DNA of 64,000 nt from Chamaelirium japonicum. Taxonomy: Eukaryota > Streptophyta > Magnoliopsida > Liliales > Melanthiaceae. The translations under genes were made by a program, and so were the position numbers. The stretch spans positions 11,389,619 through 11,453,618 of the forward strand of contig OX393549.1 of assembly GCA_947650365.1 (NCBI GenBank), read 5' to 3'. The first letter of the stretch is position 1. The number at the start of each line of letters is the position of its first letter. This document shows, in pieces, positions 26,097 to 64,000 of this stretch. The notes below the pieces were generated by a model. The model searched no databases and was not told the DNA's origin. It was given only the letters and a program-made list of their open reading frames with translations.

Positions 26097-26101
26097 CAGA
26101 T
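26097..26101. repeat. Left target duplication CAGAT of the nested gypsy element
   Basis: A perfect match to 43406-43410. Confidence 0.9.
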
Positions 26102-26958
26102 TGTGGGGGAAAATCGTCGTGCCGACCCGAAGACTTCACCTCACCAGTCAATTGAAGTTTGAGTTGAAGAGATCATTATTCGATCTGTTGATTGGAGTCG
26201 TTGCTTTCGATATGCAAGCAGAGAGAGTTGGACACGAGAGATGTGATCTCGGAGTTCAGCCGAAGCCTACGTCTCCGTGCTATAGGGAGCAACCCGAATT
26301 CACTAACACTTATATGGAAGTGATCTCGACAGGCCGAGTATCACTGAAAACACTCTGATCTCTTCGAAGGAGAGAATAAGATCAAAGAGAGGTGGAAGAT
26401 GGAAAGCTGAGAAATTCCAGAGCTCTGGGTTCTGAAAATCAGATCTCAGAGTGGAAATCAGAATTTTCGGGATCCATTTACATTCGAAGGCTCTGCTATT
26501 TATAGAATTCTATGGTGGTAAATGGCGGTTTTCTGCTGTCGTATTTGGGGATCCTCCAGGTAAGGCTGGTGGGCTCCGCTGCCGTCTTAGGGGGCCCACC
26601 AGGCAGGGCCGGTGGGTCCCGCTGTGGTTTTCGGGGGCCCACCAGGCAGGGCTGGTGGGTCCCTCGGAAGCCTTCATGGGCCCACCGGGCAGGGCCGGTG
26701 GGTCCCTCGGAAGCCTTCATGGGCCCACCGGGCAGGGTCGGTGGGTCCCGCTGTAGTCTTCGGGGGCCCACCAGGCAAGGCCGGTGGGTCCCGCGATAGT
26801 CTTCGGGGGCCCACCAGGCAGGGCCAGTGGGTCCTGCTGTGGTACTCGGGTGCCCACCAGGCAGGGCCGGTGGGTCCTGTTGTTGTCTTCGGGGGCCCAC
26901 CAGGCAGGGCCGGTGGGTCCCGCTGTTTGCATACTTCTTGCCAAAATTTGCACCCACA
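26102..26958 (-). repeat. 3' LTR of the nested gypsy element (857 bp)
   Basis: It begins tgtgggggaaaatc and ends tttgcacccaca on the plus strand. On the minus strand it has a TATA box CTATAAATAG (26496-26505) and a 43-bp U3 array. By eye I count about seven differences from the other LTR in the first 270 bp. Confidence 0.93.
26590..26930. repeat. 43-bp tandem repeat in the gypsy U3, about 8 copies
   Basis: The core gggcccaccaggcagggcc recurs at an exact 43-bp spacing, with the CCC starting at 26595, 26638, 26681, 26724, 26767, 26810, 26853 and 26896. The matching array in the other LTR is at 43037-43377. It lies upstream of the TATA box in element sense, so it may act on the promoter. Open frames on both strands (glycine/proline-rich) are repeat artefacts. 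Confidence 0.93.
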
Positions 26959-26972
26959 GTTACCCCCTCCAA
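26959..26972 (-). other. Polypurine tract next to the gypsy 3' LTR
   Basis: The minus strand reads GGAGGGGGTAAC directly before the LTR's TGTGGG. This is the expected place for plus-strand priming. Confidence 0.6.
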
Positions 26973-27064
26973 GTTAGCTAAGAGGCCACCTTGGCTGGCT
27001 TGGATTCGTTGTGCAAAGCTAACGACCCCCTGTCACACACGCAGAGGAGCTCTGTCGAATGTTA

Positions 27065-28830
27065 GTGTCAAAATAGACTGATCGGTCAAACTTGACCGAT
27101 CGGTCAAACTTGACCAATCGGTCAATTTTGACCGATCGGTTAAATTCAACCGGTCAAGGTTGGAGTGATCGGTCAAAAAACATAGTTTTTTGACCGATCC
27201 AGTAGGAAATCGACCGATCGGTTGAATTTGACCGATCGGTCAATTTTGACCGATCGGTTAAATTCAACCGGTCAAGGTTGGAGTGATCGGTCAAAAAACA
27301 TAGTTTTTTGACCGATCCAGTTGAAAATGGACTGATCGGTTGAATTTGACCGATCGGTCAATTTTGACCGATCGGTTAAATTCAACCGGTCAAGGTTGGA
27401 GTGATCGGTCAAAAAACATAGGTTTTTGACCGATCCAGTAGGAAATCGACTGATCGATTGAATTTGACCGATCGGTCAATTTTGACCGATCGGTCAATTT
27501 TGACCGATCGGTCAATTTTGACCGATCGGTTAAATTCAACCGGTCAAGGTTGGAGTGATCGATCAAAAAATATAGGTTTTTGACCGATCCAGTAGGAAAT
27601 CGACTGATCGGTTGAATTTGACCGATCGGTCAATTTTGACCGATCGGTTAAATTCAACCGGTCATGGTTGGAGTGATCGGTCAAAAAACATAGGTTTTTG
27701 ACCGATCCAGTTGGAAATGGACTGATCGGTTGAATTTGACCGATCGGTCAATTTTGACCGATCGGTGAAATTCAACCGGTCAAGGTTAGAGTGATCGGTC
27801 AAAAAACATAGTTTTCTGACTGATCCAGTAGGAAATCGACTGATCGGTTGAATTTGACCGATCGGTCAATTTTGACCGATCGGTTAAATTCAACCGGTCA
27901 AGGTTGGAGTGATCGGTCAAAAAACATAGTTTTTTGACCGATCCAGTAGGAAATCGACTGATCGGTTGAATTTGACCGATCGGTCAATTTTGACCGATCG
28001 GTTAAATTCAACCAGTCAAGGTTGGAGTGATCGGTCAAAAAACATAGTTTTTTGACCGATCTAGTAGGAAATCGACTGATTGGTTGAATTTGACCGATTG
28101 GTCAATTTTGACCGATCGGTTAAATTCAACCGGTCAAGGTTGGAGTGATCGGTCAAAAACCATAGGTTTTTGACCGATTCAGTAGGAAATCGACTGATCG
28201 GTTGAATTTGATCGATCGATCAATTTTGACCGATCGGTTAAATTCAACCGGTCAAGGTTGGAGTGATCGATCAAAAAACATAGTTTTTTGACCGATCCAG
28301 TAGGAAATCGACTGATCGGTTGAATTTGACCGATCGGTTAAATTTAACCGGTCAAGGTTGGAGTGATCGGTCAAAAAACATAGGTTTTTGACCGATCCAG
28401 TAGGAAATCGACTGATCGGTTGAATTTGACCGATCGGTCAATTTTGACCGATCGGTTAAATTCAATTGGTCAAGGTTGGAGTGATCGGTCAAAAAACATA
28501 GGTTTTTGACCGATCCAGTAGGAAATCGACTGATCGGTTGAATTTGACTGATCGATCAATTTTGACCGATCGGTTAAATTCAACCGGTCAAGGTTGGATT
28601 GATCGGTCAAAAAACATAGGTTTTTGACCGATCCAGTAGGAAATCGACTGATTGGTTGAATTTGACCGATCGGTCAATTTTGATCGATCGGTTAAATTCA
28701 ACCGGTCAAGGATTGAGTGATCGGGCAAAAAACATAGTTTTTTGCCTGATCAAGTAGAAAATCGCCCGATCGGTTGATTTTGACCGATCGGTCATGTTTG
28801 ACCGATCGGCTAAAATCAGTCGGTCAAGGT
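27065..28830. repeat. 118-bp tandem array with palindromic 'gaccgatcggtc' core, about 14 copies
   Basis: The landmark ggttggag recurs near 27158, 27276, 27394, 27548, 27666, 27784, 27902, 28020, 28138, 28256, 28356, 28474, 28591 and (degenerate) 28709. Spacing is 118 bp, with one gap lengthened by two 18-bp subunits and one shortened by one. Each unit carries one or more copies of the perfect 16-bp palindrome TTGACCGATCGGTCAA. It lies between the accessory gene and the 3' LTR, the usual place for tandem repeats in Tat-type elements. Confidence 0.93.
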
Positions 28831-29205
28831 TATGGGACAATATCTTAGTGCAAAAATTTGAAGTGGAATATTCTGCTGCGAACCGGTGGGCCTGATGGAC
28901 CGGTGAGTCTTCTGATCCGGTGGTTTGCTTGAACCGGTGGTCCAGCCGGTTCGACGTTTCGACTGGCCCCGACTGTTCGCCTGGTCTTGCGCTTGCAATG
29001 GATTGACGCCACGTGTCCCTGGTAAAAACACGCGATTTGCCCAGGTGATGACACGTGTCTTTTCGATGTGCGCGCCGGTTTACCCTGGATATATAAGTTT
29101 TTCTGGCTGTCATTTTCGCCTCACGCTTTCAGAATTTTTTCGAAGTCCAGAATTTTTGCTCTCGTTTTCTTGCTCTCTGTTCTTTGCTTCCTCTCGATCG
29201 GTCAA

Positions 29206-32035
29206 ATGGCGACTTCTAGCAGTTTGAAGAAGAGCGCAGTTCCTTCCAAGAGGAAGGGGAAGGAAATTGCTGAAGTCTCATATGTCCCGAAGGGCCGTGG
29301 CAAAGGCAGGGCTGAGTTGATCGAGCTTGGTCAATTGGGCAAGAGACACCAGGGAGTGGGGTTTGCTTCTGCACCCTCCCGTCCAGAGCACATCCCCAAA
29401 GCAAGATTTGTTCTCTGCCCGCTGCTGCCTCTGTCGGCGGAACCGGAGTTTGGGTACAATACTGGTGGTCAACTCACTGACTTGAAGAGGGAGAAATTGC
29501 ATAAGCTGCTAGCTTGTTTTACAGAGGGGAAATCCCGACCAGCACTTCCGGGAGTTCTATCCGCTTTTGGTATCGACAGGCGGACAATCTTCACCACGTA
29601 TGCGAGCAAGGAGCAAGTAATGGGGACGATAGTTACCATAGGTCAGTTGAACTGTGGACTGCGCCTCCCATTGCCGCCATTCGCCGCAAGGCTTCTGAAC
29701 ACCTCGGGTCTTTGCCCTGGGCAGATTACTGGAAATGCGTGGAGGATCATATACGCTTTCTGCCGCGTGGAGTCTGATTTCCAAGATGAATTGAGGGAGT
29801 GTTACTCCAGCCTTCCCGAGGGCGAGGTTGCAAGGATAGAGTTGGGCTATTTCTTCTACCACTATAAGTGGGTTTCGAGGAAGGATAGCCCATTCTACAA
29901 TCTGACTGGTGTATCTGCCCTTCGCCCGATCGTCGACACCATCGGCTCTGACAAGCTCTACACCGACTGGCCGTTATCGGTTTCCGGTGCATGGACTCCT
30001 CTCTCGGTACCTGAGACTCCTCGTTACAAGGTGCACAAAGAGATAGATATGTACTGCACAGGAGAAGCCCTCTCATGGTCTTCGGAACGAGTAGGGGCTA
30101 TAGACAATCTTTTCCTGGAGCTGACGTGCGGGACTCGATCATGGAAGCAATTCTCAAATTGCCCAGTTCGACATGGCAATGCCAACCTCCTCCACCGATC
30201 GAAGACTCGTTATGAAGATAACGACGTCTTGTATTCCGACTATAAGGAGGATCCTTAGTCGGGCAAGGTCATTAGAAACATTCGGATCGAGAAAAAGGCG
30301 TACGGAGCCAGGCGCAGCTTGCCCACAGAGGAGAAACTGGTGATACGTCGCCAAGGCTAGGCAAAGAAGAAAAGGAAAGTCTATGTTGAGGAAGAGAAGA
30401 AGAAAGAAATAGAGAAAAAGGGGGAAGAAGAAGAAGAGGAAGAAGAGAGAGAGTAAGAAGGTGGAGGGGAAGAGGATGAGGGTGGAGATGATGATAATGA
30501 TGATGATGCTGATGATAGCAGTGGCAGCGGCGAAGGAGGAAATGGAGATGAAGGTGGTGAAGATGGGGGTGGTGGGGATGACATTCCTCCCACCCCCACT
30601 GATGGCGACAGAGGACAGTGGGGGTGGTGAGGAAGAGATTCCTCCCACCCCCACTGGTGGTGAAGAAGGAGAGGAAGATTCACAACCTATCCCTATTGAC
30701 GAGGTTAAGGCCCATCGAATGGAGGTTGTGATGGATGCAGAGGGTGACAGCAAGAAGGTGCAGCCCGCCTATCATTTTGAAGATTTGAAGAAGCATCCAG
30801 TGCGCTTCAAGATTAAGTTCTCTGGGAGTGGTGGGGTTGGAAGCAACCCCACGCCTCTCGACCAAATTCCTCCAGACGCTCCCCGCCTCGAGGGCGTGAC
30901 CACAAGCGGAGGCCTGGAGGTTGAACAGCCTCCTCCTCCGTCGCGATCTTTGGCAGATGAGATGGCGGCGCTTGTGGCCGGGATGCAGCAGTCGCCTGGA
31001 CGACAAGATGAAGGGGAAATCTCCCCTCCTCGGGGTATTCCATCTCCCGCACACATGGAGAGAAGAAGCCGAGTGGGGGATGGGACTCCCCCATCTCAGC
31101 CGAAGCCAACCCCCGCTAAGGAGAAATCTACCTCCAAGGGTAAGAGCTCCGACCATGGGAAGGAAAAGGCTCCTCGGGTCGATGCCTCAGGTATTCAGAC
31201 TAGCTCGCCATCTTGATTACCTTATCTATGGAGTTTGAACTTATTCTGGCTTTCTGAACCTCTGTGTTGATTGTAGGTACGCCTGTTGGCACGACTAAGA
31301 AGTTGAAGGATTTGGGTGAGGTTGACATCAACCACCCAACTAGTGTGATCCGGAAACTCTGCAACCTTCCGGACGCCACTCTGGATGAAGCCTTTGGTAG
31401 GCTTGAAGTAGTGGTATGTGCATCTACTTGATTCGATCATCGAGTTGTGTTTTTCAAAAAATTCTAACTCTTTGATCTATTTGCAGAACTCAGCAGTTTT
31501 GAAGTTCGCGAGCAAGCTCTTCAGGAGGGCAGGAGAACTGGAGGCTTCATCTGAGGTGTCCCGTTTGACAGCTGAACTGGAGGCTGCCCACGAGGAGAGA
31601 GACAAGCTGAGGGAGGTGCTGCATTCGAAGAAAGAGTCTCTCAAGGCCAAGATCGAGGATCTTCGCAAGGAGAAGCTGGAGAGCAAGACGCGGCAGGAAG
31701 GTTATGAGGCTCGGGGTCACGAGCTCGAGTCTCTGAAGACTCAGCTCTCCAGGGTAGAGACCTTGTCCTGTGACCGCGCAGCTGAAAATAAGGAGCTGAA
31801 GGAGCAGCTTGCTTCCCAGAGGGATACCTTTGCTGCCAAAGAAGAGGCTCTCAAGAAAGAGTTAGAACACATGTGAGGTGAATGCGCGAGCTACAGAGAG
31901 ACGGCTGAGAAGGCGGTGGAAGCACTTAGGGCCCATGCTAGCAGTGTCCGATCTTCCAAGGCTTCTGCGGTGAGCAAAGCTCGCGGTGGATCCGAAGGAG
32001 AGAAGTCGCGCGCTCCCAGCGTGGCTAAACCTTGA
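29206..32035 (+). pseudogene. Tat-element accessory gene, copy A (antisense to the element)
   Basis: ATG at 29206. Exons 29206-31190, 31277-31413 and 31487-32035; introns of 86 and 73 nt with clean GT/AG ends. The N-terminus is basic (KKSAVPSKRKGKE, nuclear-signal-like). A globular domain at about residues 90-290 contains LRLPLPPF, LNTSGLCPGQIT, NAWRIIYAFCR, GYFFYHYKW and YTDWPL. This resembles the 'putative gypsy type transposon' family of plant accessory ORFs. A long E/D-rich stretch, a proline-rich segment and a C-terminal coiled coil (about 31560-31870) follow. Copy A is broken by TAG at 30256 and 30358, a further stop near 30450, a frameshift near 30615 and TGA at 31874. Its function is not known. 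Confidence 0.72.
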
Positions 32036-32334
32036 TGTACTGCTACCTTTTTTCTTTGCTGTACTTTGTAAACTTGCGATATGAAAAGGCTCACTCTTGT
32101 TCTTGGCAATTTTTTGATAATACATAGGTTTTTGGTGTTTGAAAATTGGATGTCTCTTGATTGTCTTTGAATATCATGTTTTGGGTAGCATTGGAATGTT
32201 GAATGGATACAATCTCTTGAATGTAAGGGGTTGAGTCGCAACTCGATTACCGAAACTTGTATCTCGAAAATTGAATTTGAATTCGTGTAACACTCGTATG
32301 CGAGGGGTCGAGTCGCAACTCAAACACCCAAACC
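32036..32334. other. Left copy of the gypsy spacer after the accessory gene
   Basis: Reverse complement of 38932-39230, with the shared 'gagtcgcaactc' motifs. It ends at the chimeric junction at 32335-32338. No gene. Confidence 0.7.
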
Positions 32335-32585
32335 TGTTTTCAGTGATACTCGGCCTGTCGAGATCACTTTGATATAAGTGTTAGTGAATTCGGGTTGCTC
32401 CCTATAGCACGGAGACGTAGGCTTCGGCTGAACTCCGAGATCACATCTCTCGTGTCCAACTCTCTCTGCTTGCATATCGAAAGCAGCAACTCCAATCAAC
32501 AGATCGAATAACGATCTCTTCAACTCAAACTTCAATTGACTGGTGAGGTGAAGTCTTCGGGTCGGCACGAAGATTTTCCCCCACA
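32335..32585 (+). repeat. Partial gypsy LTR, inverted relative to the flanking LTRs
   Basis: The reverse complement of 26102-26350. It ends in cccccaca and is followed directly by a primer site. The left boundary is not an LTR end: it starts about 130 nt downstream of the expected transcription start (judged from the TATA box) and joins spacer sequence through the shared TGTT. There is no target duplication here. Confidence 0.85.
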
Positions 32586-32608
32586 GTTTGGCGCCGTCTG
32601 TGGGATCG
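32586..32608 (+). other. Primer-binding site of the inverted gypsy segment
   Basis: gtttggcgccgtctgtggga follows the partial LTR directly. The TGGCGCC start is the usual form of the primer site in many plant gypsy elements. It is identical to the site beside the right LTR, in opposite orientation. Confidence 0.8.
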
Positions 32609-32749
32609 AACGAGAAGCTGTGTCCGTTCTACAACTACTATTAGATCAGTCAGGTAGACAACTGATCAATAGTCAAACTTCCTCGCCCCCTCGGTTAAGC
32701 ACACAACCACTCGGACGCCGGCACTCTCGTTGCACCCTTCGCTTACTAA

Positions 32750-34500
32750 ATGGCGAGGACGAAGCAGCAGGGTCAACCAGAAGGAAGCAACACACGTCAA
32801 CCTCGACCTGAGACTCGATCAATGAGTCAAAGGCTCAATTTCGGGCATCCCCTTGCTGCCCCCAATATGGATACTCGATCAGGTAGTGGGAGATCGGTTG
32901 ATCGGCCGATTGCTCCACCTCCTCATCCATCAATAGGGCATACAACCCCTGCTCCCGCTGAAGACCTTCCCTCGACATATCAAATCTCGGCGGTCGATTT
33001 CCAACTACTTCAATTGGCAAAGCAGAATGCCACCCTCACTGCTGAGAGGGACGCACTCAAGAAGGCAGCCTCCGAGGCTGGGATTGCTCTTCCCATCCCC
33101 TCGACTAATGAGAGGGTCGATTGGCCACGACCATCAATCCACTCCGAGCAACGGAGGTCAATGAGCACTGCTGCCCCCGGGAGAATTCATCGCGACCCGA
33201 CTCCCTCTGCCGCCCCTTGGAAGCAGAGTGTTTGGGATCGTCTCGACGATGAGTCCTCCCAATCCTCTTCTGGTCGCAACTGCGACAGGAAGGCACCTTC
33301 AAAGCTCGACATACCAAGGAAGCACCCGATGAAAGGCGCTCCTTCAAAGAGTAGAGTCTCCCCTTCCATTCCACTTCAACGTGGACTTGGATCTGACCTT
33401 CGACACCGACTTCAACCGGCAAATACTTCAATGCCTGAGCAAGACCTTGCGATCTTGCCTCTTGACCCACATCTAGGTCGAGGACACGGTCGTAGGGATA
33501 GATATTCCTCCGTCGGACCTCTCCATCGAAGCCTCTTCGAGTCAACATTTCTAAGGGGATGGAGAACTCCTATCCTCCCCAAATTCAACTGTGTCAAAGG
33601 AGATCCGACTCTCCATATACTTGCCTTCAAGCAAGCCTTGACACCGCACGAAGAAGAGAACAACGTGCTTTGTCGCACTTTCGCCGGAAGTCTCGATGAG
33701 CCGTCGCTCGATTGGTATCATAATCTCCGAGCTGGGTCCATCACCCAGTTCGGTGTCTTGGCTAACCTTTTCATGTAGCATTATCAACTCAACCTGAAGC
33801 CAGAAAAGAAGCTCGACTCCCTCTATCGGCTGAGGATGGATGCTGACAAGACTCTCCGCAGTTTCACAAGGAGATTTCGCAACGAGCATGCTGCCCTCTC
33901 TGGAAGACATCTGGATGATGAAGCCATCATGTTGGCTTTCCAAAACGCCCTTCGCTTCGATCTACACATCTACAACGACTTCATTCGCAATCCCCCTCCT
34001 TCTCTGGGTTCCATATTCGATCGAATCCAGAAAGAGATTGAGGTTGAAGATGATCAAGTCGCTCGAAAAGGGCGAGAAACGAAGCGAAGACCCGCGGAAA
34101 GAGATGCTCCAAAATATGCTGCCAAAGCTCACAACGCTGAGGCAACAGCTCCTCCCGCCAACAAAAAGCTAAGGAATGATGGACGTCGATCTCCAACGAA
34201 GACCACTTTCACCGAGTGGAATTTACCAATCGAGCAGGTTCTTGACCGCATTCAACACGAGGAATTCCTTCGAAGGCCCAATCCTCTTCAGCCAAATACT
34301 AAATTCACGGCTGACAAAACAGTTTATTGTGACTTCCACCGAAGTCATGGCCATTCCACCGATCGGTGCTATCGGCTGAAATTCCATCTTGAAGACTTAT
34401 TGCGAGAAGGCCACCTTCAAGAGTTTGTCAAAAGCGGTCAAGATCAGCGTCGATCCTCTGCGAAGGGGAAAGAGGCTTGCTGGGTACACCAAATCTCTTC
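32750..34500 (+). pseudogene. Tat/gypsy gag
   Basis: ATG at 32750 (the next in-frame ATG is at 32822). The N-terminus is low complexity with a heptad-like stretch (LLQLAKQNATLTAERDAL, about residues 84-101). A retrotransposon gag domain follows (33540-34060: WYHNLRAGSI, LYRLRM, FRNEHAAL). A Tat-type Cys/His segment YCDFHRSHGHSTDRCY with LLREGHL lies at 34325-34425. The frame is interrupted by TAG at 33776-33778; the same frame continues on both sides, so this is a point nonsense change. Confidence 0.85.
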
Positions 34501-37266
34501 CAACCGATCACCTATCACTGTGAATGCCAACGTCTTTGGCATTCACGGAACATTGCACAATCAAGCCTTGACCAGGAAGGAAGTAAATCGGCAAGTTCGA
34601 CGCATCTTCCACGTTCGTTCTACCACAAACAAAGAGGACACCTGGATTGAGAAGCCTATTGAAGGCTTGGCTTGGCCTTCTATTGTTTTCAACGACACCG
34701 ATCTTCAAGGAGTTCAAACTCCACATCGAGACCCCCTGGTCCTAAAACTCCTCATCGACGGAAGCACCGTCAATCGAATCCTCATTGACACCGGGAGTTC
34801 CATCGATATTATGTTCTCAGACTGTTTCAAACGTTTGGGACATAAATACTCGAGCCTCGACGTCGTCCCGACGGTAATCACAGGCTTCAATGGCGAACAA
34901 AGCATTACGGTGGGCGAATCGAGATTTACTCTCGACCTTAGCCGAGAAACTCGAGTCTCGGTGAGGTTTGCAATTGTTGAAGGAGTATCCAGCTACAACG
35001 CCATTCTCGGGCGACCATTCCTCCTCCAGATCAATGCCATCTCCTCTTCTTACCACCAACTACTCAAGTTTGCAACGGGAGAAGGCATTGTCTGCATTCG
35101 AGGCGATCAGCAAGCTGGGAGATCTTGTGAAGCTGCTGCGGCAAAAACAGATCGTAAGATCAATATTGCTCCTCCAAAGCGGCCACGAGATGAAGCTGGT
35201 CCCTCTTCCAAATAGCAATCAAAGGAGATTCCACCGATCGAGCTCCCACCAATCGAATGGGAAGCCTCACATTCAATTAAAGAAATCATCCCTATAAATA
35301 TCGGCAGTGGAGATCTCCCTCGACAAACATTTATCGGTACCGGTCTTAGCGACGCAGAAGCGCGAGACATGGTATCCTTCCTCCAGTCCAATATCGACGT
35401 CTTCGCTTGGTGTTTCGAAGACATGCCTGGTATCAATCCAGATGACGCTTGTCACCGACTTGCGATCAAAGAAGAAGTGAAGCCTGTCAAGCAAAAGCCA
35501 CGCACCATCCGACCTGAGCTACAAGTTGCCGTTCAAGAGGAGATCAGTAAGCTACTCACAGCAGGCTTCATTCGCGAAGTAGAGTATCCTACTTGGATCT
35601 CCAACATCGTTGCTGTTCCAAAGAAGAACGGGAAGGTCAGAGTGTGCATCGACTTTACCAATCTCAACAAGGCTTGTCCCAAAGATCCATTCCCCATGCC
35701 AAGGATAGATAGACTCGTCGATGCCACTGCTGGCCACGAACTATTGTCCTTCATGGATGGATACTCTGGATACAATCAAATTCCACTTCACTCTGATGAT
35801 CAAGAGAAGACATGCTTTGTGACTAGCAGAGGTCTCTACTGCTATAACGTAATGCCATTCGGCCTCAAAAATGCTGGTTTTACCTATCAAAGGTTAGTCA
35901 CAAAGATGTTCAAAGGCCAGATCGGTCGCAACGTCGAAGTATACGTCGATGATCTCCTCACCAAGAGCTCCAATAGAGGAAACCATTTAGCTGATCTGAC
36001 TGAAACCTTTCAAGTCCTCCGAAAGTATCGCATGAAGCTCAATCCTGCCAAGTGTGCTTTTGGAGTTCAATCGGGCAAATCCTGGGTCACCTTGTGACCA
36101 GGAGAGGTATTGAAGCCAACCCCGACCAAATTCGAGCCATCCTCGACATGCCATCACCTACCAATCGGAAGGAAGTACAGCGTCTCACTGGAAGACTTGC
36201 TGCCCTCAATCAGTTCATCTCAAAGTCCTTCGACAAATGTAAGCCTCTTTTCGACAAGCTACGAAAGGCGGATACGTCTGGGTGGAGTCCAACTTGCGAA
36301 GAAGCTTTTCAGGACATCAAGAAATATCTGGTGCAAACTCCAATCCTGACGGCTCCGCTTCCTAAAGAGGATCTGTGGCTTTATCTCGCCGTCACTGATC
36401 AAGCCATCAGTGCGGTCCTAATCAGTAGAAGAGAAGGCACCGAACATCCAGTCTACTACATCAGCCATACTCTTCTCCCTGCTGAAACCCGCTATTCAAG
36501 AACAGATAAAGTCATACTGGCTTTACTCACTGCATCACGATGTCTCCAACCTTACTTCGTCTCCCACCAGATCACTGTCATCTCAGAACACCCACTCAAA
36601 GATATAATTGACAAAGCTGGTCGAGCGGGTCGAATGACCAAGTGGGTGATCGAGATGAGTGCTCTTGGGATCCAATTCGAATCTCACACATCGATCAAAG
36701 GTCAAGCAATCGCTGATTTTCTAGCTGACTTTCCAGTTGAAGATCCCATCACTTGGGAAGGAGATGTAGATATGCTCCTCGAAGACGAAGTTAAGCCTCC
36801 ATGCAATTCAGCTACAAAATCCATTCTGAACCTTGAAGTTCCAACCACAACATCAACTCCATGGAAGCTTTATACTGATGGAGCTTCAAGTACGATCGGT
36901 TCGGGAACTGGGATAGTCTTGATATCCCCCGAGCAAGATCATCTTCAGAAGGCTACTCTCCTTGGATTCAATGCCACCAACAATGAAGTTGAATATGAAG
37001 CACTCATCTCCGGACTCGAAATGGCTGAATCCCTGGGGGTAGATCGAATCATCGTCTATAGCGACTCCCAGTTGATCATAAGGCAAATCAATGGGGAGTA
37101 CACAGCTCATGAAGAAAGAATGCAACTCTACTTGGCCCTAGTACGATGTCTTCAGCAACGTTTTACTAATATTGAATTCCTTCAAATTCCAAGAGCAGAG
37201 AATCAAGAAGCAGATGCCTTAGCCAATGCTGCTTCAGTTCTTGGAGACTCACTCGGAGGAAGGTAA
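34501..37266 (+). pseudogene. Tat/gypsy protease, reverse transcriptase and RNase H
   Basis: Same frame as gag. The protease carries LIDTGSS (about 34780-34803). The reverse transcriptase carries NLNKACPKDPFPMPRID, FMDGYSGYNQI and the catalytic YVDDLL (35941-35958). The first RNase H region follows, with YYISHTLL. A second RNase H module starts WKLYTDGASS (about 36862) and carries EYEALISGL and YSDSQL. Two RNase H-like modules are typical of the Tat lineage. Breaks: TAG at 35213-35215, a 1-nt deletion near 36079 moving the frame, and TAA at 37264-37266. Confidence 0.88.
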
Positions 37267-37287
37267 ATACAGATTGATTATCAAGAG

Positions 37288-38628
37288 GTGCCTAAGACCA
37301 CCCCCGAACAACAGATCATTGTTACCACAAAGAGATTTGAGGGTGGAGATCGAATGGTATTGAACCTTAACACCACAAGTGAGCTTGAGGATTGGAGACT
37401 GACAATTCTCAACTTCTTCAAACACGGTGAAATACCCAAAGATCCAAATCAATCTCGAAGACTTCAAAGGAAACTCCCAAGCTACATCATTCAAGGAGAA
37501 GATCTATACTTCAAGTCTCACAATAGGGTGATGCTCAAGTGCATTGGTCCCGAACATGCAAAAGCAATCCTGATTGATATCCACTATGGAGCTTGTGGAA
37601 ATCATTCGGGAGGAAGATCTCTTGAAGCCAAGACGAAGCTACAAGGTTACTATTGGCCAACAATGTCAAAAGATGCTCGCCAAGTGGTTCAAAGGTGCGA
37701 GCCATGCCAACGGCATGCACGGGCTATCCATCTCCCTGCAGATGAGCTTCACCAACTGTCAAGCCCATGGCCCTTCCATCAATGGGGGTTGGACTTCTTG
37801 GGGCCTTTTCCACCAACTCCTAGCAAGAAGAAATATCTATTGCTAGTCACCGATTACTTCACCAAATGGGTCGAAGCTGTGCCCCTCTTCCGAGAAACCG
37901 ATGATGAAGTGATCAAGTTCATTCGACATAACATCTTCTCAAGGTTTGGCACACCTCAAGCTCTTGTCGCTGACAATGGAGCTCAATTTGACTCTGACAA
38001 GTTCCGCGAATTCTGTCTGAACAACGGAATCAAGCTCTTCTATTCAACTCCAAGATATCCTCAATGCAATGGTCAAGCTGAAGCCTCAAATAGAGTTATT
38101 CTTGGTATACTCAAGAAGAAACTCAACGACAAGAAAGGATTGTGGGAACAGGTCCTACCTGAAGTCTTTTGGGGGTATCGCACAACTCCGAGAAGATCAA
38201 CAGGGTTCTCATCCTTTCGTCTAACGTATGGATCGGAAGCAGTACTCCCAACAGAAAACATATCAAGTACTCTGAAGACCAGGGCAGTTGAAGAAGGAAT
38301 CAACGAAGAGCTTCGAATCAATGATCTAGACTTCTCTGAAGAACTACGAGACCAAGCCTCCCTTCGTGTGGCCAAGTATCAGCAGAAGATCAAACGAGCC
38401 TACGATGAGAAGGTCTACAAAAGACAGTTCCCAGTGGGCAGTCTAGTTCTCAGAGCAGTTTTTTACAACACTAAAGAACACAGCAGTGGGAAACTTGCTC
38501 CCAACTGGGAAGGTCCATATATCGTCGAATCAGTTGGAGGCAAAGGCTCTTATCGACTGATCTCACCAGAAGGAGATAGACTGCCACGAGCTTGGAATTC
38601 TAGACACCTCAAACTGTTCTATCCATGA
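37288..38628 (+). pseudogene. Tat/gypsy integrase
   Basis: In frame with the preceding RNase H beyond its stop. A zinc domain HYGACGNH...CEPCQRH lies at 37583-37714. Catalytic core: D in GLDFLGPF (about 37786), D in ADNGAQF (about 37971), E in NGQAEASNR (about 38072). The C-terminus carries WEGPYIV and LPRAWNSRHLKLFYP. The integrase itself looks intact, and the frame ends at 38626-38628. Because the whole gag-pol block is in the wrong orientation relative to the bounding LTRs, it could not be made from this copy's own promoter in sense. Confidence 0.9.
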
Positions 38629-39198
38629 TAAAAATTCCATGATGAATAAAGATCTCTTTCAACTGTTCAAATGTTCTAGTTCTGAAGCAGTTTCAAATTA
38701 TCTATATTCAAATTACAAGGTCTTTTAACAAAGTTTGGGTGCTTGAGTTGCGACTCAACCCTTTACAGGCAAATGTTAAAACGATTTCAGGTTGTCATTC
38801 AAAGCAACCTTCAAGTCACTAGTCGGTTTAACAGGTTGGGGAGTTTTGTGTTGCGACACTACCCCTTACTTACAAATGTTAAACTGACCTTCAATTTTGA
38901 TCTTCAATTTCAACCAATTTTGATATCGTCTAACAGGTTTGGGTGTTTGAGTTGCGACTCGACCCCTCACATACGAGTGTTACACGAATTCAAATTTAAT
39001 TTTCGAGATACAAGTTTGGGTTATCGAGTTACGACTCGACCCCTTACATTCAAGAGATTGTATCCATTCCACATTCCAATGCTACCCAGAACATGATATT
39101 CAAAGACAATCAAGAGACATCCAATTTTCAAACACCAAAAACCTATGTATTATCAAAAAATTGCCAAGAACAAGAGTGAGCCTTTTCATATCACAAGT
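38629..39198. other. Gypsy spacer between integrase and accessory gene copy B
   Basis: Non-coding. Four copies of a segment with 'gagttgcgactc' (or gagttacgactc/gttgcgacac) lie near 38740, 38850, 38950 and 39020, each followed by ccctt/cccctcac and an aaatgtta or gagtgttac motif: a loose repeat of about 75-110 bp. From 38932 it pairs with the left spacer. Confidence 0.6.
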
Positions 39199-42063
39199 TT
39201 ACAAAGTACAGCAAAGAAAAAAGGTAGCAGTACATAAAGGTTTAGCCACGCTGGGAGCGCGCGACTTCTCTCCTTCGGATCCACCGCGAGCTTTGCTCGC
39301 CGCAGAAGCCTTGGAAGATCGGACACTGCTAGCATGGGCCCTAAGTGCTTCCACCGCCTTCTCAGCCGTCTCTCTGTAGCTCGTGCATTCACCTCGCATG
39401 TGTTCAAACTCTTTCTTGAGAGCCTCTTCTTTGGCAGCAAAGGTATCCCTCTATGCAGCAAGCTGCTCCTTCAGCTCCTTATTTTCAGCTGCGCGGTCAC
39501 AGGACAATGTCTCTACCCTGGAGAGCCGAGTCTTCATAGACTCGAGCTCGTGACCCCGAGCCTCATAACCTTCCTGCCGCGTCTTGCTCTCCAGCTTCTC
39601 CTTGCGAAGATCCTCGATCTTGGCCTTGAGAGACTCTTTCTTCGAATGCAGTACCTCCCTCAGCTTGTCTCTCTCCTCGTGGGAAGCCTCCAGTTCAGCT
39701 GTCAAACGGGACACCTCAGATGAAGCCTCCCGTTCTCCTGCCCTCCTGAAGAGCTTGCTCGCGAACTTCAAAACTGCTGAGTTCTGCAAATAGATCAAAG
39801 AGTTAGAATTTTTCGAAAAACACAACTCGATGATCGAATCAAGTAGATGCACATACCACTACTTCAAGCCTACCAAAGGCTTCATCCAGAGTGGCGTCCG
39901 GAAGGTTGAAGAGTTTCCGGATCACACTAGTTGGGTGGTTGATGTCAACCTCACCCAAATCCTTCAACTTCTTAGTCGTGCCAACAGGCGTACCTACAAT
40001 CAACACAGAGGTTCAGAAAGCCAGAATAAGTACAAACTCCATAGATAAGGTAATCAAGATGGTGAGCTAGTCTGAATACCTGAGGCATCGACTCGAGGAG
40101 CCTTTTCCTTTCCACGGTCGGAGCTCTTACCCTTGGAGGTAGATTTCTCCTTAGTGGGGGTTGGCTTCGGCTGAGATGGGGGAGTCCCATCCCCCACTCG
40201 GCTTCCTCTCTCCATGTGTGCGGGAGATGGAATACCCCGAGGAGGGGAGATTTCCCCTTCATCTTGTCGTCCAGGCGACTGCTGCATCCCGGCCACAAGC
40301 GCCGCCATCTCATCTGCCAAAGATCGCGATGGAGGAGGAGGCTGTTCAACCTCCAAGCCTCCGCTTCTGGTCACGCCCTCGAGGCGGGGAGCGTCTGGAG
40401 GAATTTGGTCGAGAGGCGTGGGGTTGCTTCCAACCCCACCACTCCCAGAGAACTTAATCTTGAAGCGCACTGGACGCTTCTTCAAATCTTCAAAATGATA
40501 GGCGGGCTGCACCTTCTTGCCGTCACCCTCTGCATCCATCACAACCTCCATTCGACGGGCCTTAACCTCGTCAATAGGGATAGGTTATGAATCTTCCTCT
40601 CCTTCTTCACCACCAGTGGGGGTGGGAGGAATCTCTTCCTTACCACCCCCCTGTCCTTTGTCGCCATCAGTGGGGGTGGGAGGAATGTCATCCCCACCAC
40701 CCCCATCTTCACCACCTTCATCTCCATTTCCTCCTTCGCCGCTGCCACTGCTGTCATCAGCATCATCATCATTATCATCATCTCCACCCTCATCCTCTTC
40801 ACCTCCACCTTCTTCCTCTTTCTCTTCTTCCTCTTCTTCTTCTTCCCCCTTTTTCTCTATTTCTTTCTTCTTCTCCTCCTCAACATAGACTTTCCTTTTC
40901 TTCTTTGCCTGTCCTTGGCGACGTATCACCAGTTTCTCCTCTGTGGGCAAGCTGCGCCTGGCTCCGTACACCTTTTTCTCGGTCTGAATGTTTCTAATGA
41001 CCTTGCCCGACTGAGGATCCTCCTCATAGTCGGAATACAAGACGTCGTTATCTTCATAACGAGTCTTCGATCGGTGGAGGAGGTTGGCATTGCCATGTCG
41101 AACTGGGCAATTTGAGAATTGCTTCCATGATCGAGTCCCGCACGTCAGCTCCAGGAAAAGATTGTCTATAGCCCCTACTCGTTCCGAAGACCATGAGAGG
41201 GCTCCTCCTATGCAGTACATATCTATCTCTTTGTGCACCTTGTAACGAGGAGTCTCAGGTACCGAGAGAGGAGTCCATGCACCGGAAACCGATAACGGCC
41301 AGTCGGTGTAGAGCTTGTCGGAGCCGATGGTGTCGACGATCGGGCGAAGGGCGGATACACCAGTCAGATTGTAGAATGGGCTATCCTTCCTCGAAACCCA
41401 CTTATAGTGGTAGAAGAAATAGCCCAACTCTATCCTTGCAACCTCGCCCTCGGGAAGGCTGGAGTAACACTCCCTCAATTCATCTTGGAAGTCAGACTCC
41501 ACACGGCAGAAAGCGTATATGATCCTCCACGCATTTCCAGTAATCTGCCCAAGGCAATGACCCGAGGTGTTCAGAAGCCTTACGGCGAACAGCGGCAATG
41601 GGAGGCGCAGTCCACAGTTCAACTGACCTATGGTAACTATCGTCCCCATCACTTGCTCCTTGCTCGCATACGTGGTGAAGATTGTCCGCCTGTCGATACC
41701 AAAAGCGGATAGAACTCCCGAAAGCGCTGGTCGGGATTTCCCCTCTGTAAAACAAGCTAGCAGCTTCTACAATTTCTCCCTCTTCAAGTCAGTGAGTTGA
41801 CCACCAGTATTGTACCCAAACTCCGGTTCCGCCGACAGAGGCAGCAGCGGGCAGAGAACAAATCTTGCTTTGGGGATGTGCTCTGGACGGGAGGGTGCAG
41901 AAGCAAACCCCACTCCCTGGTGTCTCTTGCCCAATTGACCAAGCTCGATCAACTCAGCCCTGCCTTTGCCACGGCCCTTCGGGATAGATGAGACTTCAGC
42001 AATTTCCTTCCCCTTTCTCTTGGAAGGAACTGCGCTCTTCTTCAAACTGCCAGAAGACGCCAT
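39199..42063 (-). pseudogene. Tat-element accessory gene, copy B (inverted arm)
   Basis: ATG at 42063. Exons 42063-40080, 39993-39857 and 39783-39199; introns of 86 and 73 nt, the same lengths and splice sites as copy A. Domain layout as in copy A. Its breaks lie at other places: TAG near 41767-41769, TAA near 40588 and TAG near 39455, all at positions that are CAT, CAA or CAG codons in copy A. The usual stop codon is mutated, which extends the frame to 39199. Upstream it is fused in frame to a gag N-terminus. Confidence 0.72.
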
Positions 42064-42073
42064 TTGACCGATC

Positions 42074-42312
42074 GAGAGTGCGTCCCTCTCAGCAGTGAGG
42101 GTGGCATTCTGCTTTGCCAATTGAAGTAATTGGAAATCGACCGCCGAGATTTGATATGTCGAGGGAAGGTCTTCAGCGGGAGCAGGGGTTGTATGCCCTA
42201 TTGATGGATGAGAAGGTGGAGCAATCGGTCGATCAACCGATCTCCCACTACCTGATCGAGTATCCATATTGGGGGCAGCAAGGGGATGCCCGAAATTGAG
42301 CCTTTGACTCAT
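42074..42312 (-). pseudogene. gag N-terminal fragment fused to accessory gene copy B
   Basis: The minus strand reads the same MSQRLNFGHPLA...TAERDAL stretch as the plus-strand gag at 32822-33060. It then switches, through a shared CTC, into the 5' flank of the accessory gene (SIGQMASS). The fusion is in frame, so a hybrid open frame exists from 42312 to 41767. This is the right-hand junction of the inverted segment. Confidence 0.85.
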
Positions 42313-42527
42313 TGATCGAGTCTCAGGTCAAGGTTGACGTGTGTTGCTTCCTTCTGGTTGACCCTGATGCTTCGTCCTCACCATTTAGTAAGAGAAGGTT
42401 GCAACGAGAGTGCCGGCGTCCGAGCGGTTGTGTGCTTAACCGAGGGGGCGAGGAAGTTTGACTATTGATCAGTTGTCTACCTGACTGATCTAATAGTAAT
42501 TGTAGAACAGACACAGCTTCTCGTTCG

Positions 42528-42548
42528 ATCCCACAGACGGCGCCAAAC
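42528..42548 (-). other. Primer-binding site of the nested gypsy element
   Basis: The minus strand reads GTTTGGCGCCGTCTGTGGGA directly after the LTR end. This marks the right LTR as the 5' LTR. Confidence 0.82.
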
Positions 42549-43405
42549 TGTGGGGGAAAATCTTTGTGCCGACCCGAAGACTTCACCTCACCAGTCAATT
42601 GAAGTTTGAGTTGAAGAGATCGTTATTCGATCTGTTGATTGGAGTCGCTGCTTTCGATATGCAAGCAGAGAGAGTTGGACACGAGAGATGTGATCTCGGA
42701 GTTCAGCCGAAGCCTACGTCTCCGTGCTATAGGGAGCAACCCGAATTCACTAACACTTATATCGAAGTGATCTCGATAGGCCGAGTATCACTGAAAACAC
42801 TCTGATCTCTTCAAAGGAGAGAATAAGATCAAAGAGAGGTGGAAGATGGAAAGCTGAGAAATTCCAGAGCTCTGGGTTCTGAAAATCAGATCTCAGAGTG
42901 GAAATCAGAATTTTCGGGATCCATTTACATTCGAAGGCTCTGCTATTTATAGAATTCTCTGGTGGTAAATGGCGGTTTTCTGCTGTCGTATCTGGAGATC
43001 CTCCAGGTAAGGCTGGTGGGCTCCGCTGCCGTCTTAGGGGGCCCACCAGGCAGGGTCGGTGGGTCCCGCTGTGGTTTTCGGGGGCCCACCAGGCAGGGCT
43101 GGTGGGTCCCTCGGAAGCCTTCATGGGCCCACCGGGCAGGGCCGGTGGGTCCCTCGGAAGCCTTCATGGGCCCACCGGGCAGGGCCGGTGGGTCCCGTGG
43201 TAGTCTTCGGGGGCCCACCAGGCAGGGCCGGTGGGTCCCGCGGTAGTCTTCGGGGGCCCACCAGGCAGGGCCAGTGGGTCCCGCTGTGGTACTCGGGTGC
43301 CCACCAGGCAGGGCCGGTGGGTCCCGTTGTTGTCTTCGGGGGCCCACCAGGCAGGGCCGGTGGGTCCTGTTGTTTGCAGACTTCTTGCCAAAATTTGCAC
43401 CCACA
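42549..43405 (-). repeat. 5' LTR of the nested gypsy element (857 bp)
   Basis: Pairs with 26102-26958 at equal length. The TATA box on the minus strand is at 42943-42952. The 43-bp U3 array is at 43037-43377. Confidence 0.93.
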
Positions 43406-43410
43406 CAGAT
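43406..43410. repeat. Right target duplication CAGAT of the nested gypsy element
   Basis: Matches 26097-26101. Confidence 0.9.
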
Positions 43411-50454: not shown

Positions 50455-50954
50455 NNNNNNNNNNNNNNNNNNNNNNNNNNNNNNNNNNNNNNNNNNNNNN
50501 NNNNNNNNNNNNNNNNNNNNNNNNNNNNNNNNNNNNNNNNNNNNNNNNNNNNNNNNNNNNNNNNNNNNNNNNNNNNNNNNNNNNNNNNNNNNNNNNNNNN
50601 NNNNNNNNNNNNNNNNNNNNNNNNNNNNNNNNNNNNNNNNNNNNNNNNNNNNNNNNNNNNNNNNNNNNNNNNNNNNNNNNNNNNNNNNNNNNNNNNNNNN
50701 NNNNNNNNNNNNNNNNNNNNNNNNNNNNNNNNNNNNNNNNNNNNNNNNNNNNNNNNNNNNNNNNNNNNNNNNNNNNNNNNNNNNNNNNNNNNNNNNNNNN
50801 NNNNNNNNNNNNNNNNNNNNNNNNNNNNNNNNNNNNNNNNNNNNNNNNNNNNNNNNNNNNNNNNNNNNNNNNNNNNNNNNNNNNNNNNNNNNNNNNNNNN
50901 NNNNNNNNNNNNNNNNNNNNNNNNNNNNNNNNNNNNNNNNNNNNNNNNNNNNNN
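50455..50954. other. Assembly gap, exactly 500 N
   Basis: A run of 500 N, probably a scaffold gap of arbitrary length. It truncates the gene start on its right. The long X-containing open frames across it are meaningless. Confidence 0.99.
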
Positions 50955-55505: not shown

Positions 55506-58500
55506 TTAACCAACCCAACGGGTGTAACGACATGTGCTACAATCCTTCTGGGCAAGCCTAATAACTTCTGGACGAAATTCGGACGTCCAGACTTTGGTAG
55601 CTTCAGTTATCCGTGCATATCCTGCGAGCCAATCAGCTACGGAATTGCCTTCGCGGTAGATGTGAGATATCCGGACTCTGGCTGTAGACTGGAGCAGAAA
55701 TTTGTAGTCAGCAATGAGGGTGGACGACACAGTATCTGAAGACACTTGAGATAGTACACTTTGAGAGTTCCCTTCGATCCACATTGTATGCCCGGGGAAC
55801 GACGTAGTGGCTGCAACAAGTCCTTCCCATAATCCTCTTGTCTCCGCCACCTGCACAGAGTCTGTGGTTAGAGAGACAACACCCGCGATGAGAAGGGTCC
55901 CCTTGTGATCACGGATAGCAAACCCCGCGCCCGCCGCCTGACTCATACGATCCACTGATCCATCAAAATTTAGTTTCAACTCCTGTAAAGTTGATGGAAC
56001 CCATTGGACAGGGATCGCCTCCATCTGATGAGGGATGTTTTGATTATACAAATCTGCAGAAATAGAGTTAGCAGAGCAAAAAGAATCAAAATCTGCTATT
56101 ATCGAATCAAAAGTAATATGGATTGCTGGATTTGTTAGTTCAAATAAAGCTTTGTTCCTGGCTTTCCATATGTGCCAAAGAGAATATCCAAGGAAGGCTT
56201 TGGCAATCTTGTTATACCCAGCACCCCGATCTTGAGTATGGCTAAACAGACGGCCGAGCTCAGTGACAGAGGTGAGGATAGATGTCATACGAATTTTGCT
56301 TCCAACATAACTCCATAGTTGACTAACGGGAGAGCACAGAAAAAACGCATGGTTTAAAGTCTCATCATTAACCAAACAACGGGGGCAAAGCGGAGAGACT
56401 GTCATCCCGATACGACAGAGGTACGAACGAACAGGAAGGCGCAGATGAAAAAGCTTCCATAAAAGCATCCGAACACGGGGCCCCATTGATGGCTTCCAAA
56501 GTGAACGCCAAATCCCAGGTATTAGTTCATTTGGTGCAGGTTCTTTTAAAAGAGAAAGGTGATAGGCCGTGGCCACATTAAAACCCATCGTCTGCTGAGG
56601 CCCCCAGGTAATGGAGGACCGGGGTTGATTTCGGAGGATCGGTATGCTACGGATCAGAGGCACCCATTCCGATGGAAAGATTGCCTGAATATTTTCAATA
56701 TGCCAACCTTGAGGGCCGAAGAGGTCAGAGATCGACCAATATTGAGACGCTAGGCCACAGTTGTAGGAAAACACCATCCGGGAAAGAGGAATTGAGAAGC
56801 ACCAAGGGATCATCCATAGGTTGAAGGATGCCCCCTCCCAGACCGGCTGTCGCATATGATACCGAACAACATCCAGACCCTCAGAGATAGCACGCCAGGC
56901 CCATGAGCATTTAGTGGGTCGTGGCCATTGCCAAGGATCCTCAGAAACCTTATATTTGTCTTGCACAAAAGACACCCAGGGGTTGTTATAGTTAGATAGA
57001 ACCTGAAAAACTTTCTTCCCCATTAAGGCTTGTCGGAACAAGCGAATTTGTCTAAAACCCAAACCCCCCTGTAACTTTGGGTGGCACACATCGGCCCATT
57101 TGACAAGGTGTAACCCATTTTTGGTGTCACTCTTGGCCCAAAGAAAACGCCTAAACTCCCGTTCCAGTTGGTCTAGAATGCGATGGGGAATCCAAACAGC
57201 ACCCAACTGGAACACCGTAATGGATTGAAGAACTGATTGAAGCAAAGTGACCCGGCTGGAAAGGATAATAGATGAGCTTTCCAGCTATCAATACGTCTAG
57301 TAATACGACTAACCATCGGAGACAGGTCAGAGGCTTGGATCCGTCGACCTGATATACGTGTTCCCAGATAGGTAATGGGGCCAGAAATAGCCGACATCCC
57401 TAGAGATGCTAGAAGAATGGGGCGAAGATTAACTGCAACCCCTGCCCCGAAAAGCACCGCTGATTTTTGGAAGTTAACTTTTTGTCCCGAGAAACGACAA
57501 TATTAACGGATGAGCTTCTGAAGAGAAGAAACATTTGGGGGGGAAGCCTCGGCGAAAATTAAGCTATCATCAGCATAGGAAAGAACTCCAATGGAGCTAG
57601 CGTTAGGGGAGGAGCGAACACCTCGCCACGTTCCACGTTGGATATTAACTTTGATATTACGAACCAGAATATCTGCACCCAAAATGAAAAGATATGGGGC
57701 CAAAGGGTCCCCCTGGCGAAGGCCACGGGTAGAGCTGAACCAAGACGTAGGGGAGCCATTAAGAAGGATGGAGAATGATGGATTTTCAATACAACCTTTG
57801 ATCCACTGGATCCAAATATGGTGAAACCCAATTTTTGACAAAACCTGATAGAGGAAATCCCAAGCCATCCGGTCATAAGCATTTGCCATATCGAGTTTAA
57901 GGGCTAGCAAATCTTTATCGCATGTGTCAACCTCCATAGAGTGGAGGGCTTCTTGGGCCAACAAAATATTATCGGAAATATTCCGGCCCTGGATAAAGGC
58001 GCATTGCTCCGGGGACACAAGCTTACCAATGACTGACTTAAGACGGTTCACAAGAAGTTTGGATATAATCTTGTACAGGACCGTACAGAGACTGATTGGC
58101 CTGAATTGTTCCGGCCGGCAGGCCTCAGACGTTTTAGAGATAAGAGTAACATAGGTGCACTTCCACGTGGCTGGCATATATCCTGTATTAAAAAAGGATT
58201 CGATTGCAGAACAAACCTCCGGCCCGACAATGTCCCAGTTTTTAGTGAAGAATTCTATCGAGTACCCATCTGGCCCCGGAGCTTTGTTACGTGGGAGGGA
58301 GAAGCAGGTACGTCGTATTTCCTCCCTCGTAACTGGGCTGATGAGAAACCGATTATCGGTAGCTGTCACGAGAGTTGGAATTGCATCCAGAAGATCATCA
58401 TTGCCACGAGGAGTGAAGGAGGTCCACTTGGCTTTGAAATGACGGAGGAGAACCTCTTCGATGGCTACCCGAGTCGTCTGGCGAACTCCAAATTCATCAT

Positions 58501-59645
58501 CTAGAAAATGGATTCTATTACGTTTACGACGCACTTGGGTAGTCATATGAAAGAACTTAGTATTGGCATCACCCGCTTGCAGCCATTGTATGCGGGATTT
58601 TTGGCGCCATTTAAGTTCCTGGAGGTAAAGGAGATTGGTGTACTGACATTGCATGGACCGCAAGGTACCTACTTCGGAAGCATTCAGCGGTGTAGACTCC
58701 TCACAGGCCGTCCAAGACTTAATCTGAGAACATAAGGAATCGATTTGTAAATCTAGATCACCTACATGAGTCTTGTTTCAGACACGAAGAGCATCTCTCA
58801 GGGAAACTAGGTTTTCACTCAGCCTAGAAAAAGGAGTTGTGGAGGGACCAGACCGCCAGGCAGACATGAAAAATCAATTCCAGTCCGGATGCTCCAGCCA
58901 AAAATTTTCAAATCGAAAAGGCCGGGGCCCCCGGAGAATAGGAGGATGTAAGGTAAGTAGGAGAGGACAAATGGTCGGACACAACCCTTTCAAGGTGACA
59001 ACTATTAGCCTCCGGAAATAAGCTGGCCCATTTAATATTACAGAAACCTCTATCAAGACGCTCAAGGATGCAAGTTTCTGGGGCCTGGTTTTTACACCAC
59101 GTATAAGCTGACCCAGAAAATTCCATGTCTATCAGACCATTAGACGCAATCGCCTGACAGAATTCATCAACAGCCGTATCAACATGAAAATCGGCTCCCC
59201 CTCGCTTATCTATGTCATGAAGCAAGACGTTAAAATCGCCACAGATAAATAAGGGGAGGCCAAGGGAGTGCAGTCGGGTGATAGAATTCCATATAGATCT
59301 TCGCTCCCTATAATCTGTGCTAGCATAAACCCCAACCAAGCACCAAGAAAACTGTTGATTGGAAAGGACACCAACCACAATTTGCCGATTCAAGGAGAAA
59401 AAGGTGGTCTCCCATCGAGTTCCGCGACAGAAGACAAGAATACCACCTGATCGGCCAATTGACTCAACACAAAAACAATGCCATCCCGGACCAAGGCGAT
59501 GGGAAACCCAACTTGCCGAAGCTCGGCCAACATGAGTTTCAAAAAGGATAAGAACTTCTGGGTCATAGCGATTAATAAGCCTCTTGCAATGGGAGACACA
59601 AGTCAACCGTCTGGCTCCCCGACAGTTCCAGAAGACAAAAGACAT
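55506..59645 (-). pseudogene. LINE ORF2: endonuclease, reverse transcriptase, RNase H
   Basis: The endonuclease starts at the ATG at 59645 (FVFWNCRGA), then ETH, GVYAST, CGDFN and SDH near 58963. A frameshift follows near 58910. The reverse transcriptase (58663-57505) carries KAPGPDG, FRPIS, FIQGR, LKLDMANAYD and the catalytic YADD (57566-57577). A stop at 57503 is followed by a frame change near 57240. The last 579 codons (57245-55506) carry GLGF, a zf-RVT-like segment (CPRCL...NHAFFLC) and RNase H with NFDGSVD and AETRGL. The third RNase H carboxylate is changed: the usual EGDS reads EGNS. Inactive as it stands. Confidence 0.87.
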
Positions 59646-59806
59646 GATCCAAAAATTAATAGTTAAAAAAAAAGGACCAGCCAAGAATTCGCCAACCAAA
59701 AAACACAAGAAACATAAAGGGAGAAAGCGGACTTAAACTTCCCGTTGGGATTCTTTACCCTCCAGTTGTTGGTCGGAGGATAACCCTTCCTTTCGCCTTT
59801 TGAGTG

Positions 59807-63701: not shown

Positions 63702-63704
63702 CTG

Positions 63705-64000
63705 CATCGGAGGCCCAATTTAAGACCGAAATAATTCTGATCCTCGTGAAAAGTTGAGCTACAGTTCGGATAAGAAGATCATTTGAAATCCAGCCCCTCC
63801 TAAAATGATCTAAGTCAAACAGTCTTTAACTTTTAATTTTGACTTTTCAGTCCAGTACAAAATACAAATTAATAAAGTATCCTTCTCCAGTACTAATTCA
63901 GTTGAGTATGGATTGGACTGCCACAGTAATTAGAAGTATCAATTTGATTGCTACAGTATTTCTACAGTGTAAATTCATTGCCGCTGAATTACTAATGGGG
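63705..64000 (-). other. Upstream intron of the beta-amylase gene, partial
   Basis: AT-rich sequence before the acceptor at 63702-63704. No exon is seen up to the window edge. Confidence 0.7.

Follow-up and report, generated by a model that had tools for sequence, protein, structure and literature searches.

An inverted chimeric insertion of a Retand-like LTR retrotransposon in Chamaelirium japonicum

Direct-orientation template-switching complexes of long terminal repeat (LTR) retrotransposons are known from Triticeae, rice, and maize, where a single target-site duplication (TSD) and matching outer LTRs are read as a sign of joining before integration (Sabot and Schulman 2007, PMC1950507). 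In those complexes, both cores are complete and a third LTR lies internally. Inverted internal stretches formed within one infection are described in integrated proviruses of human immunodeficiency virus type 1 (HIV-1), a human virus with a smaller genome (PMC9278108 and PMC8264403, both available in part). Inverted duplications of unequal length also mark both breakpoints of staggered-break inversions in Drosophila, which result from DNA breakage on the chromosome scale, without a retroelement cycle (PMC3355041, available in part). Here, we describe a single Ty3/gypsy insertion of Chamaelirium japonicum, probably a Retand-like member of the Tat group, that holds most of itself inverted between one pair of LTRs. 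It occupies positions 26102-43405 of the 64,000-nucleotide stretch C1:11389619-11453618 of a 1.52-Gb assembly, hereafter the window. The insertion shares with the cereal complexes one TSD, outer LTRs that match (here at 97.55%), and the reading as a molecule joined before integration, but it contains a 251-bp inverted LTR piece, one gag-pol stretch, and a second part that is partial. The chimera is an inverted variant of the known template-switch chimeras, a one-off oddity and not a new kind of element. A literature search at the level of titles and abstract openings found no description of an inverted plant LTR chimera, which is the sole basis for calling the inverted form unreported.

The outer LTRs of the insertion are 857 bp each, have the same orientation, and align without gaps, with 836 of 857 positions identical and 21 differences (2.45%). 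The stretches that we take to be the polypurine tract and the primer site (Table 1) read on the minus strand, which is therefore the natural direction of the insertion. In natural coordinates (prefixed N) of the plain element, which has a total length of about 13.4 kb and ends near N13438, the insertion reads in the LTR direction as N1-1330, followed by N10350-607 inverted, and then N7204-13438. The segments N607-1330 (724 bp) and N7204-10350 (3147 bp) are doubled in the window, with their copies in opposite orientation. The implied plain length agrees with eight relatives, each retrieved as two halves, that span about 12.4-16 kb from LTR to LTR. Apart from divergence, some absent stretches, and additional LTR pieces within one tandem region, the matches in these relatives keep the plain order.

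The inverted block (N607-10350) consists of an LTR part, the primer site, gag, pol, and the accessory region. Inspection of the junction sequences at its edges, 32335 and 42078, revealed neither an LTR end nor a 5-bp target duplication. Positions 32335-33058 match the reverse complement of 42076-42799, which comprises 251 bp of LTR and 473 bp of leader. The leader copies differ at 11 of 473 positions, and the LTR piece of the block has four differences from the 5' LTR and six from the 3' LTR. The second duplicated segment, the accessory region at 29191-32338, differs from the reverse complement of 38932-42078 at 74 of 3147 alignment columns, with one gap column. The initial annotation had recognized a single integration, from LTRs of equal length and orientation with CAGAT on both sides, and a block that was not integrated separately; both statements agree with our data.

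Both junctions contain microhomology, TGTT at 32335-32338 and GAG (CTC on the opposite strand) at 42076-42078. Each had been noticed before, but the span of 42074-42078 given for the latter was two bases too generous. Of 200,000 breakpoint pairs drawn at random in the element, 5.4% overlap by at least 3 bp and 1.8% by at least 4 bp, so that chance alone is unlikely to give two such junctions (a product of about 0.001 under independence). Each junction pattern is present once in the assembly with up to three mismatches allowed, the reversed patterns have no matches, and, judged by the assembly, the chimera has no second copy. The initial annotation had pointed to the same junctions at other loci as a sign of formation before integration; their uniqueness in the assembly leaves the time of formation undecided.

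The duplicates, accessory region and leader together, differ at 85 of 3620 positions (2.35%), vs 21 of 857 for the LTRs. The ratio of duplicate to LTR divergence is 0.96, with a confidence interval of 0.59-1.63, in accordance with the earlier proposal that the chimera formed at about the time of integration. The Bayes factor for simultaneous over uniformly later formation is about 3, or 2.5 with rate noise. Judged by these distances, the chimera and the insertion look equally old, and their age would be about 0.9 million years under an assumed rate of 1.3e-8 substitutions per site per year. The two accessory copies have similar numbers of private changes, 39 and 35, of which 25 and 23, respectively, are C>T or G>A.

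The accessory copies group together in a tree of ten sequences with a local support of 0.988. The underlying alignment covers ten places, two of them partial, and sites were counted in the eight full-length rows where both outgroup rows agree. Six derived sites are private to the two copies, and conflicting pairs have at most three. The accessory region of an independent relative at C6:54.7M is equally near in raw distance, at 2.35% to the block and 2.16% to the outer copy. The U5 copies group in a tree of 11 sequences with six shared sites and a support of 0.949. Sites at which four comparison rows varied were set aside, 32 of them in U5, and a further 33 sites were set aside in the leader; a support of 1.000 arises with U5 and leader combined. 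These trees indicate that the accessory and U5 copies have a private common ancestor. Because the copies share private sites in U5 and the accessory region and are less clearly related in the leader, the templates were probably either a single element or very close siblings from one burst. These private sites give no support to two clearly different co-packaged RNAs, which were also considered as templates.

The single TSD, the paired LTRs, the microhomology at both joints, the LTR-like age of the duplicates, and their shared ancestry argue for two switches before one integration. We hypothesize, with a probability of about 0.65, that two opposite-strand template switches in reverse transcription produced the chimera, which then integrated once in the ordinary way. 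We infer the order of the switches and their templates as follows. Minus-strand synthesis, running along the plus strand of the window, would begin at the 3' LTR and proceed to N7204, and the nascent TGTT end would pair at N607 with a minus-strand cDNA made from either the template RNA itself or a near-identical one. The opposite-strand cDNA would be copied from N607 to N10350 (9.7 kb). A second switch via GAG would return synthesis to the plus-sense template at N1330, and the leader, primer site, and LTR would be completed. With its ordinary LTR ends, the product could be inserted by integrase with a single CAGAT duplication. Reverse transcription often involves template switching (PMC9278108), and frequent recombination between copies is reported for new Onsen insertions (PMC5668417, available in part). 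Inverted HIV-1 proviruses are listed as two classes of 1.3% (n = 1), which we read as 2 of about 78, one of which has a deletion as well (PMC9278108). For 13 participants, the share of proviruses with inversions is given as 21% or 2.4%, according to the pipeline used (PMC8264403). HIV-1 proviruses are presumably too young for slow chromosomal change.

Several observations weigh against template switching as the origin. Two opposite-strand switches are required, and such switches are rarer than direct ones. The block end at N607 lies about 120 bases inside the expected transcript start and so is not a natural cDNA end. Given the usual spacing from a TATA box, the TATA-like sequence at N454 places the start at N485-490, and we rejected the idea that the block edge is the 5' end of an RNA. 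The copies have no clear sister grouping in the leader alone, with one shared site and a support of 0.756, and the private sites of the leader are uneven, seven in the outer copy vs two in the block. The leader of the unlinked relative at C5:77.1M differs from that of the block at 4 of 473 positions, vs 11 of 473 for the outer copy. Among the near-full-length proviruses of a second set of 691, the available part of PMC8264403 records no inversion. A later staggered-break inversion yields identical anatomy, and is slightly favoured by the base at LTR site N758, which is common to the block and the 5' LTR and occurs in none of 20 other LTRs.

According to this alternative, a plain 13.4-kb element integrated first, and its inside was inverted soon after, either by staggered breaks or by a replication-based strand switch, and fill-in and end joining left the 724-bp and 3147-bp inverted duplications at the two breakpoints. 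The same map is predicted, and the breakpoints of Drosophila inversion 2q have inverted duplications of about 1 kb and 4.3 kb, sizes near those found here (PMC3355041). The claim of the initial annotation that a later inversion would not by itself account for two accessory copies is not supported, since an inversion by staggered single-strand breaks leaves inverted duplications at both breakpoints, and timing favours simultaneity by only about 3:1. Its preference for template switching or self-priming over nested integration holds with regard to the single integration, the un-nested block, and the microhomology, but not in its dismissal of inversion. The inversion would have to be early, as a uniform prior puts the 5% quantile of duplicate age at 0.62 of the LTR age. 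A later inversion is also expected to leave mutations common to the block and the 5' LTR only. Comparison of the three LTR-end copies identified N758 as the only candidate for such a shared derived site among eight variable sites in 251 bp, and the rest are private or ambiguous. We consider a later inversion rather unlikely.

A nested insertion, in which a second family member entered in reverse and deletions later removed its LTR ends, its TSD, and part of the first element, appears very improbable. Nesting does occur here, as the chimera itself lies within an older LTR element and C5:77.1M has neighbouring elements in opposite orientation. Furthermore, C6:54.7M is as close to each accessory copy (2.16-2.35%) as the copies are to each other, and C5:77.1M is closer to the block leader than the outer copy is. 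However, at least three events would be needed, both edges lack LTR termini and a TSD, and the private sites common to the copies in U5 and the accessory region, together with their LTR-like age, also count against this scenario. The repetitive family, with 8614 first-look LTR candidates, could have misled the assembly into uniting pieces of different copies. Misjoins usually fall in long identical repeats, whereas the joints here are at 3-4 bp. The element contains no N, the sole gap of the window being at 50455-50954, and the single TSD fits the whole insertion. The 2.35% divergence of the copies excludes a palindromic read or the double use of one locus. We give an assembly error very little credence, and both it and nested insertion fit worse than template switching.

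After integration, a direct switch between near-identical RNAs is invisible, and switches to the opposite strand are rarely observed. If the chimera arose by template switching, it would physically document opposite-strand switching in a plant LTR element, being datable, flanked by a TSD, and legible at both junctions, and it would show that a molecule switched in this way could still integrate. An inverted duplication within one TSD does not by itself separate errors of reverse transcription from early chromosomal inversion.

Of the candidates in the similarity searches (8614 for the LTR, and 4688 and 4957 in two others), 40 each were scored, and relatives closer to the element than those used here may exist. 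In the gag part, up to about N2400, the block resembles C5:77.1M at 96.8-98.6%. Between N2500 and N4500, its similarity to C5:77.1M is 88.0-93.8%, vs 98.4-98.8% to C6:54.7M, and both are at 97-98% further on. Such patterns indicate that members of the family (L017, L018, L028) are mosaics, as expected from ordinary template switching. C5:77.1M was examined as a second inverted chimera and set aside, since in the part covered a polypurine tract lies immediately upstream of its left LTR, which thus appears to be part of another element. The tandem region at C6:54.7M holds LTR pieces. Three elements of about 6.4-7.3 kb (L025, L026, L027) have LTRs 89-94% alike to those of the chimera and little of its internal region, and are perhaps non-autonomous partners.

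The gag-pol of the block is on the plus strand and hence in antisense orientation relative to the bounding LTR promoter. A transcript from the 5' LTR, which has a TATA-like box, would read into antisense gag-pol and hold two complementary stretches of 3.1 kb, with 43 identical runs of at least 24 bases, the longest of 215. Long double-stranded RNA from the chimera is thus possible on paper. Mu killer is proposed to silence MuDR in maize in this way (PMC3440606, available in part). By analogy, the chimera might act today as a self-made silencing locus, its LTR promoter transcribing antisense gag-pol and the 3.15-kb inverted repeat into double-stranded RNA and small RNAs against the whole family, but we regard this as highly doubtful.

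The coding content is consistent with a Retand-like element of the Ty3/gypsy Tat group, by domain order and accessory features. In the available parts of PMC6317226 and PMC11963269, the Retand lineage of Tat is characterized by RNase H, a second RNase H, and integrase, a long region between pol and the 3' LTR with antisense open reading frames (ORFs) and tandem repeats, and a 5-bp TSD, all of which have counterparts here. The ORF at 36052-37266 contains RT_RNaseH at 104-203 and RVT_3 at 283-394, and the integrase follows in the next ORF. Antisense ORFs occur in both accessory copies; one of five accessory ORFs tested matched Transposase_28 weakly (E 7e-5, 23.4 bits, below the Pfam cut-off of 26.2). 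The present copy differs from Retand in its inverted interior and in a gag-pol spread over several ORFs in two frames. This gag-pol is split, with stops closing ORFs at 33776, 35213, and 37264, the first of which may be a natural gag-pol boundary, and with a frame change near 36050.

Table 1 Features of the chimeric insertion, in window positions.
Feature	Position	Strand	Remark
TSD CAGAT, left	26097..26101	.	
3' LTR of insertion	26102..26958	-	97.55% to 42549-43405; polypurine tract adjoins
Polypurine-tract-like stretch GGAGGGGGTAAC, upstream of 3' LTR	26959..26975	-	label presumed
118-bp tandem array between accessory region (pol side) and 3' LTR	27067..28831	.	
ORF in outer accessory copy, antisense to element	29068..30258	+	weak Transposase_28 match
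Outer copy of duplicated accessory region (N7204-10350)	29191..32338	-	97.65% to reverse complement of 38932-42078
Junction 1, 4-bp microhomology TGTT	32335..32338	.	
Inverted block N607-10350	32335..42078	+	LTR part, primer site, gag, pol, accessory region
251-bp LTR end inside block	32335..32585	+	begins downstream of LTR TATA-like box; without N1 end
ORF at gag position	32750..33778	+	no Pfam match
ORF with aspartic protease	33836..35215	+	
ORF with reverse transcriptase domain	35369..36097	+	
ORF with RNase H, then second RNase H (RVT_3)	36052..37266	+	
ORF with integrase	37288..38628	+	zinc-binding and rve core
Inner copy of duplicated accessory region	38932..42078	+	
Junction 2, 3-bp microhomology GAG	42076..42078	.	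CTC on opposite strand
Outer leader (N858-1330) with primer-site-like TGGCGCCGTC	42076..42548	-	97.67% to reverse complement of 32586-33058; primer-site label presumed
5' LTR of insertion	42549..43405	-	TATA-like CTATAAATAG at N454-463
TSD CAGAT, right	43406..43410	.	

The older LTR element that hosts the chimeric insertion spans 21598-49921, with 2.3-kb LTRs that are 91% alike and an apparent TSD, TATGT. The order of events is consistent, because the chimera sits inside an element whose LTRs are only 91% alike. The window gap consists of 500 N and lies about 7 kb from the insertion. On the minus strand, a LINE-like element at 55506-61705 contains DUF4283, endonuclease, reverse transcriptase, zf-RVT, and RNase H domains in order, and a beta-amylase-like ORF is located at 62492-63718 (Glyco_hydro_14, E 1.8e-93).

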